Positions 18,633 to 36,235 of a stretch of DNA of 36,957 nucleotides are shown here, one piece after another. This stretch comes from a virus, in the IMG/VR virus record IMGVR_UViG_3300021368_000410, positions 1 through 36,957 of that record; one strand, 5' to 3'. The position numbers and the translations under genes were made by a program. How positions within the stretch are numbered: the stretch's first letter is position 1; each line of letters begins with the position of its first letter. The notes beneath the pieces were generated by a model that was given only the letters and a program-made list of their open reading frames with translations, was not told the origin of the DNA and ran no database searches.

Positions 18633-20371
18633 TATTTATTATAATTTGGGTGATGCCCTCTATTCGGCATATCTTTTGGTGCAATTGCATATTCTTTTGG
18701 ATTTGTTGGTTCTTTAAATCCATCTTTTTTTGCATCTCCAATTGACACTTTATCTCCTTGTTTTACTCTCTTTTTATATACGTTTAACATAAATTTGTGT
18801 TGACAATTAACACCCCCTTTATATTTAAACAAACTATATCTTTGTCCTTTATGTCCTAACTCTTTGTTTAAACCTCTAAAAGACATCATACTAATATCTT
18901 CTTTTCTAAATACTATATTTTGTTCAGCTAAATTTTCCATACTAATACAAAACTTTCTACTATTAATAGATTTTTTTATTGGTGTATATGAATATCTAAC
19001 TTTAAATGTAGCACTATCTTGATATGACTCTTTGTTAGGATTTGCATCAGATTTACTAGCTTCGTTAGAAAACTTCTCTAAATCAAACTCTTGATCTGAA
19101 TCTTCTACTACTTCTTGATGTACCAATTCCCATTCATTGTCATCTATCTTTTCTCCTAAAGACTCTAATTGACTTAATAAGTCATCAGCTTCGTCATCAC
19201 ACATATCTATTTTTTCTTCACTAGACAACTTTTCTCCTGTTTCTTCTTCTCTTTTAATCTTAGTTGCTATGTTATCTAACTCAGTAAATTCAATAGGTTG
19301 TAACGTAACAAAATATAAGTTTAGATATATTTCATTAAAAGATAAAATAGTCTTAAGAGAGTCTATTAAAAGTGCTTGAAATGGTCGTATAACGATGTTG
19401 TCCATTAATATAGAAGCTGTTCTTAATTCTTCTGCATTGTTACCAAAACCAGTGTTGTCTTTTATACCTAATAATATAGGAGATACAACTCCGTGACCAA
19501 TCATAATCTTTTCTCTCGATTCCTTTGCTAAGAAATCATATTGTGCGTGTGCGTCTGGTAGGTTTATTGGCTCTACTGATGCTTGTGTTTCTGCATCTTC
19601 ATTAAATGCTAATATAAATCTACCTGCGTTTGATGATCCACTAAATTTATCATATATCTTTCTTTCTATTATTTCTTGTGCTTCATCACCAGGCACACCA
19701 TTATTAAAGTTTAATAACATAGATGGTTGTAAACCATTCTTAATGTTGTTTATGTGATAGTTAGATACCTCTTCCTCTAAATTACAATATTGCAAACAAC
19801 CTTGATAGTCGACTGGTGAATAATAATAAAAACCAGGTCTATAAGGTTTTACACAATATATTTCTACTAATTCACTTTTTTTACCAAATCCAAATGCTGG
19901 TATTCTTTTTGGTTTATCACTAGGTTTTATATCAGTCCATTTAGGGTGATAATAATATGCTTTTATTTTACCATCTTTTGCTTTCTCAGCTCTAAGTGTT
20001 TCAGTAGGAAAATGATAAATTCCATTGATCTGACTTTTTCTCTTGTCATAAGTAACTTGTATAGATGCTTGACCTAAAAGTTTTAAATCATTAACTATTC
20101 TTTTTAATTGGTCAGGTTTTAGTATCGCCTGCATTTTACCAAACATCTCTGCTTTCTCTTGTGAATCAGTTGCATCTAATCCTCTACCATATATCATATC
20201 GACAATACCATTAACACATCTTGAGTTAGTTGCACTACCTAAATATCTTTCTATAATCTCATCAAAGTATGCGTTATTTTCTCCATACTCAACCCAATTA
20301 TGTCTTTTACTTTCAATTACTTTAGGTATTTCATACCCTGCTAAATTGATTATTTTTAAATTTTTACTCAT
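18632..20371 (-). CDS. Portal protein with C-terminal extension
   Basis: Residues about 1-380 follow phage portal organisation: NNAYFDEIIERYLGSATNSR and CVNGIVDMIYGRGLD, a membrane-like clip region GFYYYSPVDYQGCLQYCNLE, the QASVEPINLPDAHAQYDFLA stem, and IMIGHGVVSPILLGIKDNTG followed by NAEELRTASILMDNIVIRPF, a typical portal core. Twelve copies form the DNA channel. After an acidic linker (about 380-450) comes an extra domain (about 460-579) with SRKFCISMENLA, VFRKEDISMM and YKGGVNCQHKFMLNVYKKR, a module also found in other phage head proteins and of unknown role. It is fused here rather than separate. Confidence 0.85.
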   Translation of the reverse strand: MSKNLKIINLAGYEIPKVIESKRHNWVEYGENNAYFDEIIERYLGSATNSRCVNGIVDMIYGRGLDATDSQEKAEMFGKMQAILKPDQLKRIVNDLKLLGQASIQVTYDKRKSQINGIYHFPTETLRAEKAKDGKIKAYYYHPKWTDIKPSDKPKRIPAFGFGKKSELVEIYCVKPYRPGFYYYSPVDYQGCLQYCNLEEEVSNYHINNIKNGLQPSMLLNFNNGVPGDEAQEIIERKIYDKFSGSSNAGRFILAFNEDAETQASVEPINLPDAHAQYDFLAKESREKIMIGHGVVSPILLGIKDNTGFGNNAEELRTASILMDNIVIRPFQALLIDSLKTILSFNEIYLNLYFVTLQPIEFTELDNIATKIKREEETGEKLSSEEKIDMCDDEADDLLSQLESLGEKIDDNEWELVHQEVVEDSDQEFDLEKFSNEASKSDANPNKESYQDSATFKVRYSYTPIKKSINSRKFCISMENLAEQNIVFRKEDISMMSFRGLNKELGHKGQRYSLFKYKGGVNCQHKFMLNVYKKRVKQGDKVSIGDAKKDGFKEPTNPKEYAIAPKDMPNRGHHPNYNK

Positions 20372-24835: not shown

Positions 24836-26914
24836 TTATATCGAAGAATTAAACATAACTTGTCGCATTAATTGTTGTTTTGATGTTATTTCACTTTCTA
24901 CTACATATGCTTTTATAGGTTTCTCTTCAGCTCCAGCAATAGTTTGTGCTAATTGACTAGTTTGCGTTGCACCTACTACATTAAATGCTGGTGCTTGTAT
25001 TACTGGTGTTGGTGTATTAGCAATTGACGATGATGCACCAACTGATGCACTTTCAGGATTTCTTATTTCTTTTATAGCTTGTATTGCACTAGCTGTTGTC
25101 GCAGCGACACCTGTAAAAGCAGTTACTTTGTTTGTTGTTAGTAAAGCTGTTCCTAGTGGTGCTGTTAGAGGATTAGATAAAAGTTTTAAAGCAGATGCGT
25201 CAGCTATACTTTTATTAGCTATAATTTTTGATATAGCACCAGCTTTTTCAGTAACTACTCCTGCTATTGCTAATGTTTTATTTTTTCCTGCTAATTGTTG
25301 TAACAACTTACCTACTTGAACTGCTGCTTGAGCTGATACTCGTAAACTTTTTGCTTTAGATTGGTTTTCTACGTCAGCTATTTTAGCTCTTTGGTCAGCA
25401 TAAAATTGTTCTATCTTTGTTAAATCTTCATTAAATCCTATTCTACTACCTAACTCTTCTTCTTGTGCATCATATAAAACATTTAATTGACTAATTGCTT
25501 CTTGTTCTGCTATATTTATTCTCTCAAGAGCATTTGATCCTTGATACTCTTTCATAAACTCACTGAGATCATTTAATGCACCATCTAAACCACTTTCTTC
25601 AGCAAATCTAATTGCATCAAATCCATCTTTTAATTCATCATTAGGATCAAGTAATCTTTCTATCATATTTCTATCATCATCTAAAACATCATCATTTAAT
25701 GATTCAAAAAGATTATCATCAATTGGTTCTATATCACCAAACTTTTTTATTCTTTCATCTACAAACTCATTTAGTTGTCTTTCACCATCTATAACCTCTC
25801 TTAACAAATTCAAATCTATATCTCTTTTTTGAATTGTTGCTTCCATTTGACCAATTCTAATATCATTACCTCTAATAATATTTTTTACCCTAGCTTCCGT
25901 GCTTACTGTTAACGTTCCCTCAGCTCTACGTAAATCTACTGTTTTTTGTAGTTCAATATTTTCATTTCTAAGATTTGCTATTCTACCTTTTTTACGTTCA
26001 AATGCTTTAAGGTCTTTGTCATTAAACTTTTCTAGTTGTTCATTTAGTTTATTACTCTTTTCAGAAAAATCTAATTGTAACTTAAAAAACTCTTGAGATA
26101 ATTCTTTTCTTTTTTCACCACTAATAAGTTGTTCGTCTAATGCGTCATTTAATTCTTGATTTCCTCTAAGTAGTGCATCTAAAGCAGTGTTTTGATCTTC
26201 ATAAGATGAATTAACGTCATTTAATATTTGTAGGTATCTTTCAAGTGCTGCTCGACTAGCAATTGCTTCGTCTTTTATTGCAACCATACCCTCTTTTATT
26301 TTTTTACTACCACCAAATATAGACGCTACTAATTTTTCAATATCATCTCTAAAGAATGTTAACAACGCAAGTACACCTTGTATTGCTAATACAAAAGCAC
26401 CACCTTTCATTAATTGACGCTTTAATAAAGTCAATACATTTTGTGTACCACCAACTTTACCACTAAGTATCTCAAAGTTGTTTGCTAAGTTTGATAAGTT
26501 GTTTGTTACACCAATAATACCAAAGGGTGCATCTGATATTGTTCTACCAAATTCTACAATAGTGTTAGATGCAAGACCAGTGTTTGCAATCATATCAGCG
26601 TTTACTTGATCTTGACTTTTAGTAGTCGTAGTCAATTCACGCATTTGTGCTTCAACTTGTGCTATTTGTGCATTATACTTACCATATTCAGAAGATGTTT
26701 TAGCTAAAGAATCTCTTTGTTGTTTTAATGTTCTTATTTGTTTTTCAAAACTAGATACAGTTCCCTCAAGAAGTGCATCGGTCTTTTGTAACTCTCCATT
26801 AATTTCAACAAATGCTTGTTCAAGTGTTTCTACCTCTTGACCTAATTCGTCAATGACAACTCTACTTTTGTCAATAACCCTAATAGTATAAATTAATTCT
26901 TTACCCTTTGCCAT
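24836..26914 (-). CDS. Tape measure protein
   Basis: The 692-aa protein is mostly helical with long coiled coils (about 20-100 and 230-380). FGRTISDAPFGIIGVTNNLS (about 122-142) is a segment I recognise from Bacteroidota phage tape measures. A hydrophobic helix GAFVLAIQGVLALLTFF (about 170-190) and an Ala-rich hydrophobic C-terminal region (about 545-640) follow. The protein sets tail length and enters the host membrane. At roughly 1.5 angstrom per residue it implies a tail near 100 nm. It lies between the tail-tip and protease genes, an unusual position. Confidence 0.85.
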   Translation of the reverse strand: MAKGKELIYTIRVIDKSRVVIDELGQEVETLEQAFVEINGELQKTDALLEGTVSSFEKQIRTLKQQRDSLAKTSSEYGKYNAQIAQVEAQMRELTTTTKSQDQVNADMIANTGLASNTIVEFGRTISDAPFGIIGVTNNLSNLANNFEILSGKVGGTQNVLTLLKRQLMKGGAFVLAIQGVLALLTFFRDDIEKLVASIFGGSKKIKEGMVAIKDEAIASRAALERYLQILNDVNSSYEDQNTALDALLRGNQELNDALDEQLISGEKRKELSQEFFKLQLDFSEKSNKLNEQLEKFNDKDLKAFERKKGRIANLRNENIELQKTVDLRRAEGTLTVSTEARVKNIIRGNDIRIGQMEATIQKRDIDLNLLREVIDGERQLNEFVDERIKKFGDIEPIDDNLFESLNDDVLDDDRNMIERLLDPNDELKDGFDAIRFAEESGLDGALNDLSEFMKEYQGSNALERINIAEQEAISQLNVLYDAQEEELGSRIGFNEDLTKIEQFYADQRAKIADVENQSKAKSLRVSAQAAVQVGKLLQQLAGKNKTLAIAGVVTEKAGAISKIIANKSIADASALKLLSNPLTAPLGTALLTTNKVTAFTGVAATTASAIQAIKEIRNPESASVGASSSIANTPTPVIQAPAFNVVGATQTSQLAQTIAGAEEKPIKAYVVESEITSKQQLMRQVMFNSSI

Positions 26915-31140: not shown

Positions 31141-34100
31141 TTAATAGATGTCTACTCCTGCACAAGCACCAAAATTATAAACTATTCCAGACCTTACTCC
31201 TGATGGATTACCACTATAACCTATTTTAAATGCGTTTCTATCTTCATTAATTCTAAAACCAGTTTCACTTGTTGGTGCGTATATTGTACTTAATGCAGTG
31301 TCGCTATATAATATAGTTCCATCTCCAAATGTTCCAACATAATAAACATTTAAATCATAAGTAAATAGTGTACTACAAGCAGCAGATGTATTTAAAGCCG
31401 AACTAGAAGATATTCTCATAACTTTAATGTCAGATGGTCTTTCTTCCGTTGGGGGTGGTGGTGGATTAACAAAAGCATCACACGAAGCACAATCCCTAAA
31501 GTTAGTTAGATCATCAATATTAATAGTTGTCGTATCACTTGTAGTTGTAGAATATTCATAACAAATACCATTATATACAACACTAGGATATTGGTCTTGA
31601 AATTGAGCAGTAGTTAAATTATCTATATGACCAAATACTATTGTTTGTGATGCGTCATTACATTGTTTGTATACTCTTCTACCAGTAAGTGTTGTTGATG
31701 GGGGTGCAGAACCACCACTAGTACAAGTTGAACAATCATTAAAAGGTGTCCAAAATAAATCTTCAAATACTAAAGCGTCTGGACTATATGCTCTAACATC
31801 TCCCTCGTTATTATGTAAAGTAAAAACTGTGTGTCTACACTTTGTAGTGTCTGCACCAACTCTTAATACATTTGGTAATGGTGAGTTAGATACAATATAT
31901 GTTAAAGTACCACCTGTACTACCACATAATCTATAAGCACCATAATATTTATTAGGATCAACGACAACTTCTTCTTCAACAGTTATATCACCAATACAAC
32001 TTTCACAATCACCATATGGCTGCGCTCTTTCAAAATCCGAAGTAGATAGTGTATAATAACCACTAGGTAAATTATAATTATCAGCATATATTTCAATTAA
32101 CTCATAACAACCAGCACCACCTGTTTGACCAAAATCTTTTAGACTTAATATATTACCTAATTGATATTCAAAATTATCAAACACTATGTATTCTAATCTT
32201 CCAGAATTAGCATCACCAGTACTCGTACATCTTCTTAAAGCAACCTTTTGTATGTTTGTTGTAGGTTGACTAGCTGGTGGACCTGCACAACCATAATTTA
32301 TACAAGGACCTGCGATTCCACTTGCTTCAATGTATCTATAATTATTGTTAGTTCCATTTGTACTATCAGAATAAGTACCTGGAGATAAAGCACCAGTTCC
32401 ATCTGCATTTGCATAGAATTGATTACCAACACAAAAAGCAGTCACTGCATCTCTATCACCATATATTGTAACTGTTGTTCCTGAACTACAAGCTGTGTCA
32501 CTTGCAGCTCCAGTACTTGCAAATCTTAATGCAAAACTTGGTCTTGTTTGCCACGTAATTTGTTTTGCAGTCGTAGCAGTTAAATCTGTAACACCAACAC
32601 CACTTACTTTACAATTATAAAATACATCACCAGCACTTGTTTGCGTTTCACCACCACCACCAACTTCGTTAATAATAAGTTCAGATGATGTTTCACCACT
32701 TATGTCAGATTGACTACCTGCTGAACTACCTTTAGTCCATTGATAAGTTGGGTTTGTTATGTTTTCTGCTATTGCAACTAATTTTGTTCTTTGTGATACA
32801 AAAGCAAAACCTTGATTATTACCATCACTTGTTGACATACTTATTGTTACTCTAGCACTAGATGTTATTGTTGTATTTGGCGATACGTCAGTACCACACA
32901 TTTTGATAGATGAAACATAACCAGGTGGGTAGCTATTTACATATGCGTAATGTTCTTGTGGCGAACCATCACTACAAGTTAATATTAATTTATACCAATT
33001 GTCAGTACCACCAAAAGCTGATGATAAATTATTGTCAGATGCTCTTTGCGTATATAATAATGCACCCTCTGTGATTGCACCATTATAATAAACCTCTGTG
33101 TCAGCTAATAAATCACAAGCAGTTGCACCAAGAGGACCTGCTATTGTTGAATAGCTTGAAGATATAATTGCTGTGTTTGGAATATTACTTGATTCTTCAA
33201 TGTTACAAGATGTAGGTATAGTAGCACACTCAACATAACCACTAATTCTTCCATCAGCTTGTTCACCAATTATCGCATTATTATTTGAACCTATCTTATA
33301 ATATTTACCATCACTTGCATAAGGAGTTTGTAATGATTGATCTGAAAATAGAATAACACCATTTCCTAAAGCACTTTGACCATCAAGTAAAACAAAGTAA
33401 GCTGTTTCTGACGCAGTGTCTGCACAAGCAATACTTGCTAATGTTCTACCAACAGGAGAAACTAAAACAGTGCTTGGTGTCACTTGTGTTACTTCATCAT
33501 ATATTTTCACACTAGTAGATACTGTTGGACTAATATCAGTTAACGTCAATGTAAAAGTTTCATAAGGTTGCTCACTTATACTATCTTTAATTGCTTCAAA
33601 TGTTTCTTGTGCAGAATTATTAAATACTTGAAACGATCCTGTTAATCCATTTCTTACTAAATCACTTGCAGATACTCCTGTTATTTCAAATGGAATAGCT
33701 GTATCATCAGGAATATTTTGTGTTGTTAATTCTATTGTAAACGCATCACCCTCAGTTGCACTTGTAACACTTGGAGTTAGTATGTATGTTTCACTTAAAG
33801 CAAGAGTACCAGATAAAGATGAAGCTAAAGAAACATTAGCACTACCAAACGTACCACTAAAAGTAGCAGTTGATATTGCAAGAGCAGGATTTGCACTATA
33901 ATTAGATGCAAGTGTTAAAGCAATAGCAAAACTATAACTATCACCTTGTCTACCTTTTACTTCAAACTCTTCGCTAACTAATTTTTGTAAATTAACTACT
34001 TGTTGTGCTTGTATGCTTGATGATTTAGTTACAGTACCACTATAACCTGGTGATGAAACTGATGGTAATATTCCATTTGTAATTGTAAGCGTCGCAGTAT

Positions 34101-34500
34101 ATTGAGTTGATGTTGCCCAAGAAACTATAAAAGCTGTAGCAGTTATTTGATTTCCATCTGCGTCTAGTGTACTACAACCATAAGTAAATTCTTGATTAGT
34201 TACTCCACCCCCTAACGTTTCAGTAAATGTAATGTCTGGTGTTGTACCTGCAGCAGCAGCGTTTCCACCAGTCCACGTATAAGTTCCATTAGATGTAAAG
34301 TTAATAGGTATTGCACGAAGTGTTATGTTAGAAGCTGATGTTCCCTCTCCTGGACTATTTACTTCAACGTTGTTAACTACTTGTACTATTTTAAGTTGAT
34401 ATATCTCTCTTCCCTCTTCACTAGTTTGATCTGTTGATCCCTCAGATCCTGAAGCTACTATGTAATATGGACTCCTACTATTTACTTTGTTTACTGCCAT
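31141..34500 (-). CDS. Giant fibre protein with Ig-like domains, 1119 aa
   Basis: The start MAVNKVNSRSPYYIVASG is a typical virion-anchoring head of Bacteroidota phage fibres. It is followed by long Ser/Thr/Gly/Asn-rich beta segments, including Ig-like stretches (SVTSATEGDAFTIELTTQNI). Several repeats of about 90-100 residues then carry paired cysteines (IACADTAS; DCESCIGD; DCSTCTSGG; DCASCDAF; ACAGVDIY) and a YxG...LYSDxxLxxxY pattern. Disulphides or metal binding may rigidify it. It is the best candidate for an adhesive fibre; cysteine-rich repeats are unusual in fibres made in the cytoplasm. Confidence 0.75.
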   Translation of the reverse strand: MAVNKVNSRSPYYIVASGSEGSTDQTSEEGREIYQLKIVQVVNNVEVNSPGEGTSASNITLRAIPINFTSNGTYTWTGGNAAAAGTTPDITFTETLGGGVTNQEFTYGCSTLDADGNQITATAFIVSWATSTQYTATLTITNGILPSVSSPGYSGTVTKSSSIQAQQVVNLQKLVSEEFEVKGRQGDSYSFAIALTLASNYSANPALAISTATFSGTFGSANVSLASSLSGTLALSETYILTPSVTSATEGDAFTIELTTQNIPDDTAIPFEITGVSASDLVRNGLTGSFQVFNNSAQETFEAIKDSISEQPYETFTLTLTDISPTVSTSVKIYDEVTQVTPSTVLVSPVGRTLASIACADTASETAYFVLLDGQSALGNGVILFSDQSLQTPYASDGKYYKIGSNNNAIIGEQADGRISGYVECATIPTSCNIEESSNIPNTAIISSSYSTIAGPLGATACDLLADTEVYYNGAITEGALLYTQRASDNNLSSAFGGTDNWYKLILTCSDGSPQEHYAYVNSYPPGYVSSIKMCGTDVSPNTTITSSARVTISMSTSDGNNQGFAFVSQRTKLVAIAENITNPTYQWTKGSSAGSQSDISGETSSELIINEVGGGGETQTSAGDVFYNCKVSGVGVTDLTATTAKQITWQTRPSFALRFASTGAASDTACSSGTTVTIYGDRDAVTAFCVGNQFYANADGTGALSPGTYSDSTNGTNNNYRYIEASGIAGPCINYGCAGPPASQPTTNIQKVALRRCTSTGDANSGRLEYIVFDNFEYQLGNILSLKDFGQTGGAGCYELIEIYADNYNLPSGYYTLSTSDFERAQPYGDCESCIGDITVEEEVVVDPNKYYGAYRLCGSTGGTLTYIVSNSPLPNVLRVGADTTKCRHTVFTLHNNEGDVRAYSPDALVFEDLFWTPFNDCSTCTSGGSAPPSTTLTGRRVYKQCNDASQTIVFGHIDNLTTAQFQDQYPSVVYNGICYEYSTTTSDTTTINIDDLTNFRDCASCDAFVNPPPPPTEERPSDIKVMRISSSSALNTSAACSTLFTYDLNVYYVGTFGDGTILYSDTALSTIYAPTSETGFRINEDRNAFKIGYSGNPSGVRSGIVYNFGACAGVDIY

Positions 34501-34993
34501 CGATTGTTATTTTATTTAGATGTGTTTCTAAGTCTTTATTATAACTTGCTTCTATCTCTTTTGTTATTGAAGCATAATATTTTTTGTCAATGTAATCTAT
34601 AATATTTGCACCTCTATTTCTACCCCCAAATCTTGCAATTGTACCATCACGCTCAATTTTCTTCATTATTAGATATGCTAAATCCTCTATTGAGTTGTTT
34701 GCATAATTACTAACTACATTTTTTGCTCTAATCCAATTCTCTATTGCACCTCTATCAACTTTTCTAGGATCGCCACCTTGATCTACTTCGTTGAAATATT
34801 TCGCAGCGTAAAAATTTAGAAATATATCGTTCTTTTTTACAAACACTACACTATTCATACTTCTCTTCAAATTACCAGTCGCATTTAGTTTTGCAGGTGG
34901 TGTACCTTTTTTTACATCTAGTTGACGTTTTAAGTCAGCTTGTATTTTTGTTCTAAGTTTATTTAGTGCTTGTGATGTAAATTCATAGATCAT
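34478..34993 (-). CDS. Tail completion/neck protein, HK97 gp10-like
   Basis: I start at MIYEFTSQALNKLRTK (34993) because its ATG shares a base with the upstream stop; the longer frame (35047) overlaps that gene. Basic N-terminal helix, then PAKLNATGNLKRSMNSVVFV, where the A-TGxLxxS motif is the hallmark of gp10-like neck proteins, then YFNEVDQGGDP, IENWIRAKNVV and IDYIDKKYY. It probably links head and tail. It overlaps the fibre gene by 23 bases. Confidence 0.7.
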   Translation of the reverse strand: MIYEFTSQALNKLRTKIQADLKRQLDVKKGTPPAKLNATGNLKRSMNSVVFVKKNDIFLNFYAAKYFNEVDQGGDPRKVDRGAIENWIRAKNVVSNYANNSIEDLAYLIMKKIERDGTIARFGGRNRGANIIDYIDKKYYASITKEIEASYNKDLETHLNKITIDGSKQSK

Positions 34994-35454
34994 TAGCAAA
35001 GAGATAATTCGTTTGTAGGTACTTCTATTTCTATTGTTACACCCCACCCTGCAAGTTCATTCTCATATGAGTCGATTATTGGGTTGGCGATTACAGATGT
35101 AGTTATTTGAAAGTTCTCTGAAAATGTATCTCCTCTTCTCATTTCTTGTTGTAATAGATTTACTACTTGCAATTGTGTATTTAATACATCTTGTAAGTTA
35201 TCGTTGCCAAAAAATTCATCTTCATCTTCTTTTGTGTTTTTATCATCTACTATGTCTAAGCACAAAACTTGTATTGTTGCACTCATTATTCTATCATCAA
35301 AAGTAACGTCACCAAATACTATATGTGCTAATGGGTATATAGTTGTCTTATTCAGATCTATTTGTAGTAGATCACCAAATGTAACATATTTAGTTATTCC
35401 ATTTGCTCTTAATAATGTTTTTAATTTATCTAGTATTGTATAGACCTGTCTCAT
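34993..35454 (-). CDS. Tail terminator/completion-like protein, 153 aa
   Basis: An alpha-helical opening (QVYTILDKLKTLLRANGITK) is followed by beta strands YPLAHIVFGDVTFDDRIMSA and TIQVLCLDIVDDKNT, and a C-terminal strand WGVTIEIEVPTNELSLC. This is the layout of tail-terminator or minor tail proteins next to gp10-like genes. The start overlaps the frameshift product stop (ATGA), tying it to the chaperone locus. Confidence 0.6.
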   Translation of the reverse strand: MRQVYTILDKLKTLLRANGITKYVTFGDLLQIDLNKTTIYPLAHIVFGDVTFDDRIMSATIQVLCLDIVDDKNTKEDEDEFFGNDNLQDVLNTQLQVVNLLQQEMRRGDTFSENFQITTSVIANPIIDSYENELAGWGVTIEIEVPTNELSLC

Positions 35455-35705
35455 TTTGTATGTTTTTTTAGCATTTTATGTTCTAGTTCGTTTTTCTCTT
35501 TCTCAAACTCTAACCAAGTTAGACATTGAAATAAGGGTAATTTTGTAATGTTTTTAAATTTAGTGACATCTCCTTGAGCGATTGCGTAAATTGATTGATA
35601 CCAACCCCATTTTGTTCCAAAGTTTGACGTAGAGTCAAGTCCTTGTTCACTTGATCCACCAAAGAGCGAATCATATGACTCGACAACTCTTTCCCTAAAC
35701 GATAA
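35451..35705 (-). CDS. Frameshift (-1) extension of tail assembly chaperone
   Basis: The reading frame runs 84 codons from the slip site to a TGA at 35453-35451 that overlaps the next gene (ATGA). It has no start codon until near its end, and a TAA closes it immediately upstream of the slip (35717-35715), so it can only be reached by frameshift. The sequence is clearly protein-like: SFRERVVESYDSLFGGSSEQ, then FGTKWGWYQSIYAIAQGDVT, KFKNITKLPLFQCLTWLEFE. This is like the T part of gpG-gpT. With the upstream 177 codons it makes a 261-aa fusion. Its length and downstream coupling support it being functional. Confidence 0.75.
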   Translation of the reverse strand, partial: LSFRERVVESYDSLFGGSSEQGLDSTSNFGTKWGWYQSIYAIAQGDVTKFKNITKLPLFQCLTWLEFEKEKNELEHKMLKKHTK

Positions 35706-36235
35706 AAAAAAACATTAGCACCTATGGGAACACTTACTGGTGCATCTAACATAACGTCAGAATATTTCTCACTCCCCTCATAATCCTCTATCTCATATAA
35801 ATTTTTGTTTTTATATATTATAGGTCTATATAGTACAGCCATAGCTTTGTGCATAGTTTCCCAACTTTGTATGTATTTTTCTAAATCTACAAACTCACCT
35901 AATGTAATATCGTCTATCTTAGGTATAAACCCAAACTCTACTTCCTTGCCATTAGGATCAGTCATAGTAAATCTTTGTTGTAATGGTGTTTCTTCTTTAA
36001 ATATTGTTGCTAGGTGGTTTATGATGTTGGAGAATGCAGTCATAGGTAGTTCATATGCTTTCTTAAGATTTATACCACAAAATATTTCTAGCATCTTCAT
36101 ATTAGCAAAATCTATCTTCTCTTGAGTAGGTTCTTGCTCTTGATTAAAGTCAACTATCTTAATATACTTTTGGTAATCTATCAGCTTGACCTCTGATAAT
36201 GTTCTAGGTACTTTTACTTTTATTTCCTCAATCAT
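35519..36235 (-). CDS. Tail assembly chaperone, zero-frame product (G)
   Basis: The 238-aa soluble helical protein begins IEEIKVKVPRTLSEVKLIDY and continues KMLEIFCGINLKKAYELPMT and GFIPKIDDITLGEFVDLEKY, matching tail-chaperone-like proteins ahead of tail genes in Bacteroidota phages. It continues 61 residues past the slip site (YRLGKELSSHMIRSLVDQVN and onward to YPYFNV) in its own frame, so the two frames overlap. The chaperone would coat the tape measure during tail assembly. First gene of the long leftward late operon. Confidence 0.75.
   Translation of the reverse strand: MIEEIKVKVPRTLSEVKLIDYQKYIKIVDFNQEQEPTQEKIDFANMKMLEIFCGINLKKAYELPMTAFSNIINHLATIFKEETPLQQRFTMTDPNGKEVEFGFIPKIDDITLGEFVDLEKYIQSWETMHKAMAVLYRPIIYKNKNLYEIEDYEGSEKYSDVMLDAPVSVPIGANVFFYRLGKELSSHMIRSLVDQVNKDLTLRQTLEQNGVGINQFTQSLKEMSLNLKTLQNYPYFNV
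35703..35713 (-). promoter_or_regulatory. Slippery site (U9 run) for -1 frameshift
   Basis: The minus strand reads G-TTTTTTTTT-A. In zero frame GTT TTT TTT TAT, sliding back one base gives TTA TCG TTT. The nine T permit tandem slippage, either of the ribosome or of RNA polymerase. A stop in the -1 frame lies directly before it. Confidence 0.75.

Follow-up and report, generated by a model that had tools for sequence, protein, structure and literature searches.

A conserved U-run and a dual-coding overlap in a likely tail chaperone gene of marine phages

Our data support a programmed −1 frame change at a run of nine uridines in a likely tail chaperone gene of a marine phage group. With a probability of roughly 0.7, the observations as a whole are best explained by two products that share a common front part, a gpG/gpGT-like −1 shift on U9 and a short form with a selected ending. 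Most expression would stay in the zero frame and yield a product of 238 aa, while on the U9 run a minority would change to −1 reading, giving a product of 261 aa with an additional helical domain, separate and conserved, in which the motif WGWYQSIY lies. About 186 nt would thereby carry two protein sequences at once.

Layout of the frameshift gene

The window, that is, the whole stretch of DNA that was analyzed, is a viral record of 36,957 bases from IMG/VR, and the frameshift gene lies on its minus strand. The zero-frame open reading frame (ORF; positions 35519 to 36235) encodes the G-like product of 238 aa, which consists of a conserved N-terminal domain and a 61-codon zero-frame tail. At the junction, the minus strand has G at 35713, nine Ts at 35712 to 35704 and A at 35703, read in the zero frame as ...GCT AAT GTT TTT TTT TAT CGT TTA GGG..., with GTT TTT TTT TAT at 35713 to 35702; within the U9 run, a slippery heptamer, U UUU UUU, occupies 35711 to 35705 in zero-frame phase. 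The −1 frame is open at 35451 to 35714 of the same strand. It opens only 2 nt upstream of the run, with a TAA immediately 5′ of the slip, and in the window there is no start codon in this frame ahead of its conserved motif. Its post-slip reading, the T-like part, is a C-terminal domain of 84 codons (LSFRERVVES...KWGWYQSIYAIAQGDVTKF...) that ends at an ATGA junction shared with the start of the next gene at 35454. Joining 36235–35705 to 35705–35451 gives the trans-frame product of 261 aa. The zero frame stays open for 61 codons past the slip, and 186 nt (35519 to 35704, minus strand) are consequently read in both frames, as the tail YRLGKELSSHM...NYPYFNV in the zero frame and as LSFRERV...LPLFQC in the −1 frame. 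An earlier sequence-only reading had claimed the G-U9-A at 35713–35703, the TAA, the missing start, the 84 codons and the ATGA end of the −1 frame, the 61 further zero-frame codons and the lengths of both products, and all of these were borne out by the coordinates.

The next gene (34993 to 35454, minus strand), whose start overlaps the −1 frame stop in the ATGA, encodes a protein of 153 aa that belongs to phrog_30964, of unknown function, and its synteny is kept in relatives, for example, as a 153-aa gene in the related locus L006. The frameshift gene belongs to the structural cluster and precedes, with five genes in between, a gene for a probable tape measure protein of 692 aa (24836 to 26914, minus strand; its PHROG matches, to tail length tape measure, are weak, E 6.7e-5). 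It opens the morphogenesis cluster and is not situated between the major tail protein and the tape measure as in lambda; genes of the gpG/gpGT type normally stand directly ahead of the tape measure gene. The structural gene order from 36235 to 18632 is itself unusual, with the protease (Peptidase_S78_2), a putative capsid gene and the portal behind the tape measure. A protein of 1119 aa encoded at 31141–34500, in a tail-gene neighborhood, gave a weak Ig-domain match only, and L006 has a counterpart of 1068 aa in the corresponding position. The window contains seven A/T runs that are exactly nine long, at 1099, 3304, 12935, 12996, 20764, 36731 and 35704.

Conservation of the U-run and of both reading frames

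Relatives were sought in IMG/VR with the zero-frame protein, an alignment of the trans-frame product and a divergent alignment, and in a fourth scan from the P12024L product; two of these scans each yielded at least 600 matching stretches, of which more than 560 were confirmed. Since the Nonlabens phages P12024L and P12024S (about 28% identical) are the only cultured relatives among the matches listed and a scan of genomes gave a single match, in a Flavobacteriaceae metagenome-assembled genome (MAG) contig (L160), the hosts are probably marine flavobacteria. We scored the 250 loci in which both halves of the gene could be placed, comprising marine flavobacterial phages and P12024L/S. The second half, with the conserved motif F..(K/R)WGWYQSIY, lies in the −1 frame in every one of them. 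The junction run is T9 in 230 loci and T10 in 20, and a shorter or interrupted run was found in none.

The codon ahead of the two Phe codons of the run (FF) is NTT (V, L, I or F), with GGT in one case, and the codon behind them is TAY, TGG, TTG, TCG or TTC (Y/W/L/S/F); the residue varies and the run is kept. Across 104 sequences, neither Phe codon of the run changes at its third position, whereas three other conserved Phe codons ahead of the slip have changed there 8, 12 and 20 times. Judging by these substitutions, the U-run is therefore under nucleotide-level selection. The comparison of relatives proposed in the sequence-only reading thus found both the frames and the U-run conserved and lends support to a programmed −1 frame change. 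A sequencing indel in the contig of the window could be rejected because independent assemblies, across all 250 loci, carry the run and share the frame relation.

Null tests of openness were carried out on 64 representatives of the main clade with less than 90% identity. In 63 of these, the zero frame is open for at least 50 codons past the slip, compared with 4.0 expected when −1 codons are resampled by usage and 18.8 when synonymous codons are permuted within each sequence. When the overlap is divided into thirds, each is open in 63/63, with 21.1, 48.6 and 16.4 expected. The converse test, of synonymous constraint on the −1 frame in 70 independent pairs, gave silent −1 differences in the overlap at 0.51 of expectation (z −21). 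At the slip codons there were 0 such differences versus 53.8 expected, and silent −1 change stood at 0.28 of expectation in post-slip codons 1 to 10 and at 0.41 in the next ten, while control tiles ahead of the slip ranged from 0.88 to 1.07. Hence, both frames are open beyond chance and the silent sites of one are constrained by the other, in agreement with the proposal that about 190 bases are dual coding. Parsimony by codon position revealed a zero-frame pattern just past the slip, at LGxEL with its invariant Leu, and a −1 pattern around WGWYQSIY; from these patterns we infer that the overlap is partly divided between the two proteins. In the main clade, the zero-frame tail appears to be selected, so that both endings appear to be under selection. 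Silent −1 change is still lowered past the zero-frame stop (35451–35518 in the window, and relatives), at 0.70 (z −6.7). Part of the drop must therefore have another cause, which may be connected with where the next gene starts. Constraint on the distal zero-frame tail is weak, with columns 60 to 68 at 0.67, like the 0.70 past the overlap.

The P12024 clade, to which 13 loci including L173 belong, has zero-frame tails of 15 to 25 codons, 25 in P12024L, and keeps the conserved tail beginning, as Y-x-L-G/A-x-D-L in most. Because these tails are short, the long zero-frame tail is, on the sequences compared, a clade trait and not universal. Loss of the tail in all relatives would, in the sequence-only reading, have told against its proposal; the loss is partial, the P12024 clade retaining a short stretch and the main clade keeping the long tail. 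Nearly all loci of the P12024 clade (L081:6480-6560 and L162–L172) carry a −1 frame ATG ahead of the motif, and in P12024L this ATG reaches into the stop of the zero frame (TTAATGG). Such an ATG would let the C-terminal domain be translated on its own in this clade, though not in the main one.

Such a start raises the question of whether the −1 ORF might simply be a separate downstream gene, translated from its own start or by coupling and involving no frameshift. The P12024 clade speaks for this, as a −1 frame ATG precedes the motif in 12 of its 13 loci, at the zero-frame stop in the case of P12024L, whose record annotates the −1 ORF as a gene of its own. However, 230 of the 234 long-tail loci lack an ATG ahead of the motif, which excludes separate initiation as the general mode, and 157 lack any common start codon whatever; moreover, the U-run is invariant and fused proteins with both domains are indicated elsewhere (see below), so that we regard a separate gene as exceedingly improbable. 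The frameshift might instead be real and the zero-frame tail functionless, a harmless extension that stays open as a side effect of −1 frame conservation. WGWYQSIY in the −1 frame does impose a GxGINQ-like stretch on the zero-frame reading, P12024-clade tails are short, the distal end of the long tail is modeled with a predicted local distance difference test (pLDDT) score below 50 at residues 225 to 238, and the constraint on columns 60 to 68 is about that past the overlap. A by-product would nevertheless be expected to stay open in 4 to 19 representatives, not in 63 of 64 and in every third of the overlap, and hardly any silent −1 changes affect the zero-frame LGxEL core; this reading is strongly disfavored. 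We consider it improbable, too, that the constraint arises from RNA structure or other nucleic acid signals with no second protein. Such signals would fit the peak of constraint directly past the slip, the lowered silent change beyond the overlap and the folding of the window alone, which is better than that of shuffles (z −2.3), but an alignment of 15 sequences produced 8 weak pairs with no compensatory change and no consensus structure, the mean folding z over the 64 representatives was −0.2 to −0.3, and a structure would not account for stop avoidance in one frame only.

Ribosomal or transcriptional slippage

All characterized gpG/gpGT-type cases are described as ribosomal, and by analogy with this precedent we lean toward a ribosomal −1 slip at U9; frameshifted tail chaperones as such are well known (PMC5009743). 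A conserved stimulatory RNA structure was found neither in the 15-sequence alignment nor among the 64 representatives, and a Shine-Dalgarno-like upstream stimulator was rejected, as it occurs in 18 of the 64 and is not conserved. The serious contender, to which we give somewhat less than an even chance, is transcriptional slippage, in which the polymerase would add a U on the T9 template and the resulting U10 mRNAs would be read into the −1 frame; ribosomes would then not slip, and only a fraction of the mRNAs would be U10. Long homopolymers are known to act in this way, since slippage on the nine As of Thermus thermophilus dnaX and on the U-run of Shigella mxiE is established (PMC1088944). 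As in the window gene, a long homopolymer joins or separates two frames in mxiE and dnaX, although these are not phage tail genes and the mechanism has been demonstrated for them.

Several properties of the run favor the transcriptional alternative. A homopolymer of about nine or more A/T residues stands at the frame junction in all 250 loci, always as nine or ten and uninterrupted, and it persists although FF may be preceded by V, L, I, F or G and followed by Y, W, L, S or F; L173 drops a T on one side and still reaches nine via TTG on the other. A C at the last heptamer position, which most sequences could accept with no residue change in either frame, is never seen, and the ribosomal site of SPP1, UUUUUUC, tolerates that C. 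The lack of an RNA stimulator points the same way, as does the position of the slip as the only coding A/T run of at least nine in the window (with conservative start choices); P12024L likewise has a single coding nine-run, at the slip. On the other hand, the first and the ninth T can also be explained by amino acids, through hydrophobic codons in the zero and −1 frames, and the shortage of other coding nine-runs is small (1 seen versus 3.2 expected). A combined proposal, that in a large clade of marine flavobacterial phages transcriptional slippage on T9, and not ribosomal frameshifting, sets the ratio of two tail assembly proteins, each with its own selected C-terminal part over about 190 shared bases, is offered tentatively and seems to us rather doubtful.

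Chaperone function and known systems

We return to the reading of two products with a shared front and a −1 shift on U9, and to what they may do. In an AlphaFold2 model of the zero-frame product (mean pLDDT 81, about 90 in the N-terminal part), a single helix (residues 168 to 208) spans the slip and continues into the zero-frame tail; the model of the −1 domain is all-helical, with a pLDDT of about 80 to 85 in its C-terminal half. In a viral structure library, the model of the N-terminal domain matches many unnamed phage proteins. Several unnamed viral proteins of 226 to 267 aa, among them A0A516L611, A0A6J5N0W0 and A0A516L5A8, match both models, and these matches therefore indicate that the two domains form single-frame fusion proteins elsewhere. 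Beyond this unnamed family, the fold resemblance to named proteins is weak, and the matches include the tape-measure chaperone of phage Seuss (E 0.04) and, from ctCpR1, a tail assembly chaperone (E 0.11). Searches of the PDB by fold and by sequence yielded no relative, Pfam and PHROG provided no functional assignment for the frameshift gene (nothing real in Pfam), and homology to lambda gpG or HK97 gp13 was not detected, with an hhalign probability below 1% for both. Because gpG/gpGT-type members are very divergent (PMC5009743), the lack of homology does not exclude analogy.

As in gpG/gpGT, the predicted products share a common N terminus through a conserved −1 frameshift, in 250/250 loci, and we find it quite probable that the gene works like gpG/gpGT, homology not being claimed. 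The identification as a tail chaperone put forward in the sequence-only reading thus stands as likely by architecture, neighborhood and weak fold similarity, whereas the searches for gpG or gp13 homology and for a Pfam or PHROG function did not bear it out. The 238-aa form would be the short tape-measure chaperone, like lambda gpG, and the 261-aa form a minor extended version, like gpGT, with an extra domain that would bring in the tail tube protein. Chaperones of the gpG/gpGT type bind the tape measure protein as well as the tail tube protein and are absent from the virion. Unlike its lambda and P2 counterparts, the short form would keep its own selected C-terminal extension, with a predicted helix across the slip site. 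We infer the chaperone function and the product ratio, and likewise that the phage makes both products and needs both.

In lambda, a −1 shift likewise adds a second domain to a minority of the tail assembly protein, but the site is G_GGA_AAG and the zero-frame stop follows about 6 codons past the slip. P2 E/E+E′ also uses a −1 frameshift, in a gene directly ahead of the tape measure gene, and differs in its short gpE, which stops at 19705, about 6 codons past the shift annotated at 19685. That zero-frame products usually end shortly after the slip is true of these two phages but not of the Bacillus phage SPP1. According to the published layout of SPP1 gp17.5/gp17.5* (PMC6316719), a putative −1 slip on UUUUUUC inside the gene gives products of 173 and 297 aa with 112 aa in common and, hence, a zero-frame tail of 61 codons. 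The U-rich heptamer and the tail, of the same length, resemble those of the window gene; the SPP1 site differs in ending in C instead of forming an uninterrupted U9, and the gp17.5 gene adjoins the tape measure gene. The account of this layout makes no mention of selection on the zero-frame tail. With this published tail, the arrangement has a precedent.

The homologous pair in Nonlabens phages P12024L/S (P12024L_40/_41, annotated as two hypothetical proteins) shares the T9 in the same phase and differs in the 25-codon zero-frame tail and the −1 ATG at the zero-frame stop. Flavobacterium phage 6H (L174) gave a weak fold match, AGN89393. An unannotated ORF of 105 codons (10361–10044, minus strand) lies directly behind it. 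This pair, in the same place, shows a −1 relation with a 10-nt overlap and no evident slippery run, and it neither supports nor refutes the frameshift reading.

What is new is the evidence for selection in both frames over a large clade, together with a rigid U9 that does not vary, and the identification of the gene among phages whose annotation lists it as a pair of hypothetical proteins. The short chaperone of lambda is viewed as the long form lacking one domain; a separate ending kept on the short form makes a C-terminal function of a G-type protein in its own right testable. The clade is abundant in the sea, judging from the at least 600 stretches matched in each of two scans, and the gene pair is unannotated even in its cultured relatives. 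With an invariant U9 and no RNA stimulator, it also offers a clean case for distinguishing ribosomal from transcriptional slippage in the Bacteroidota.
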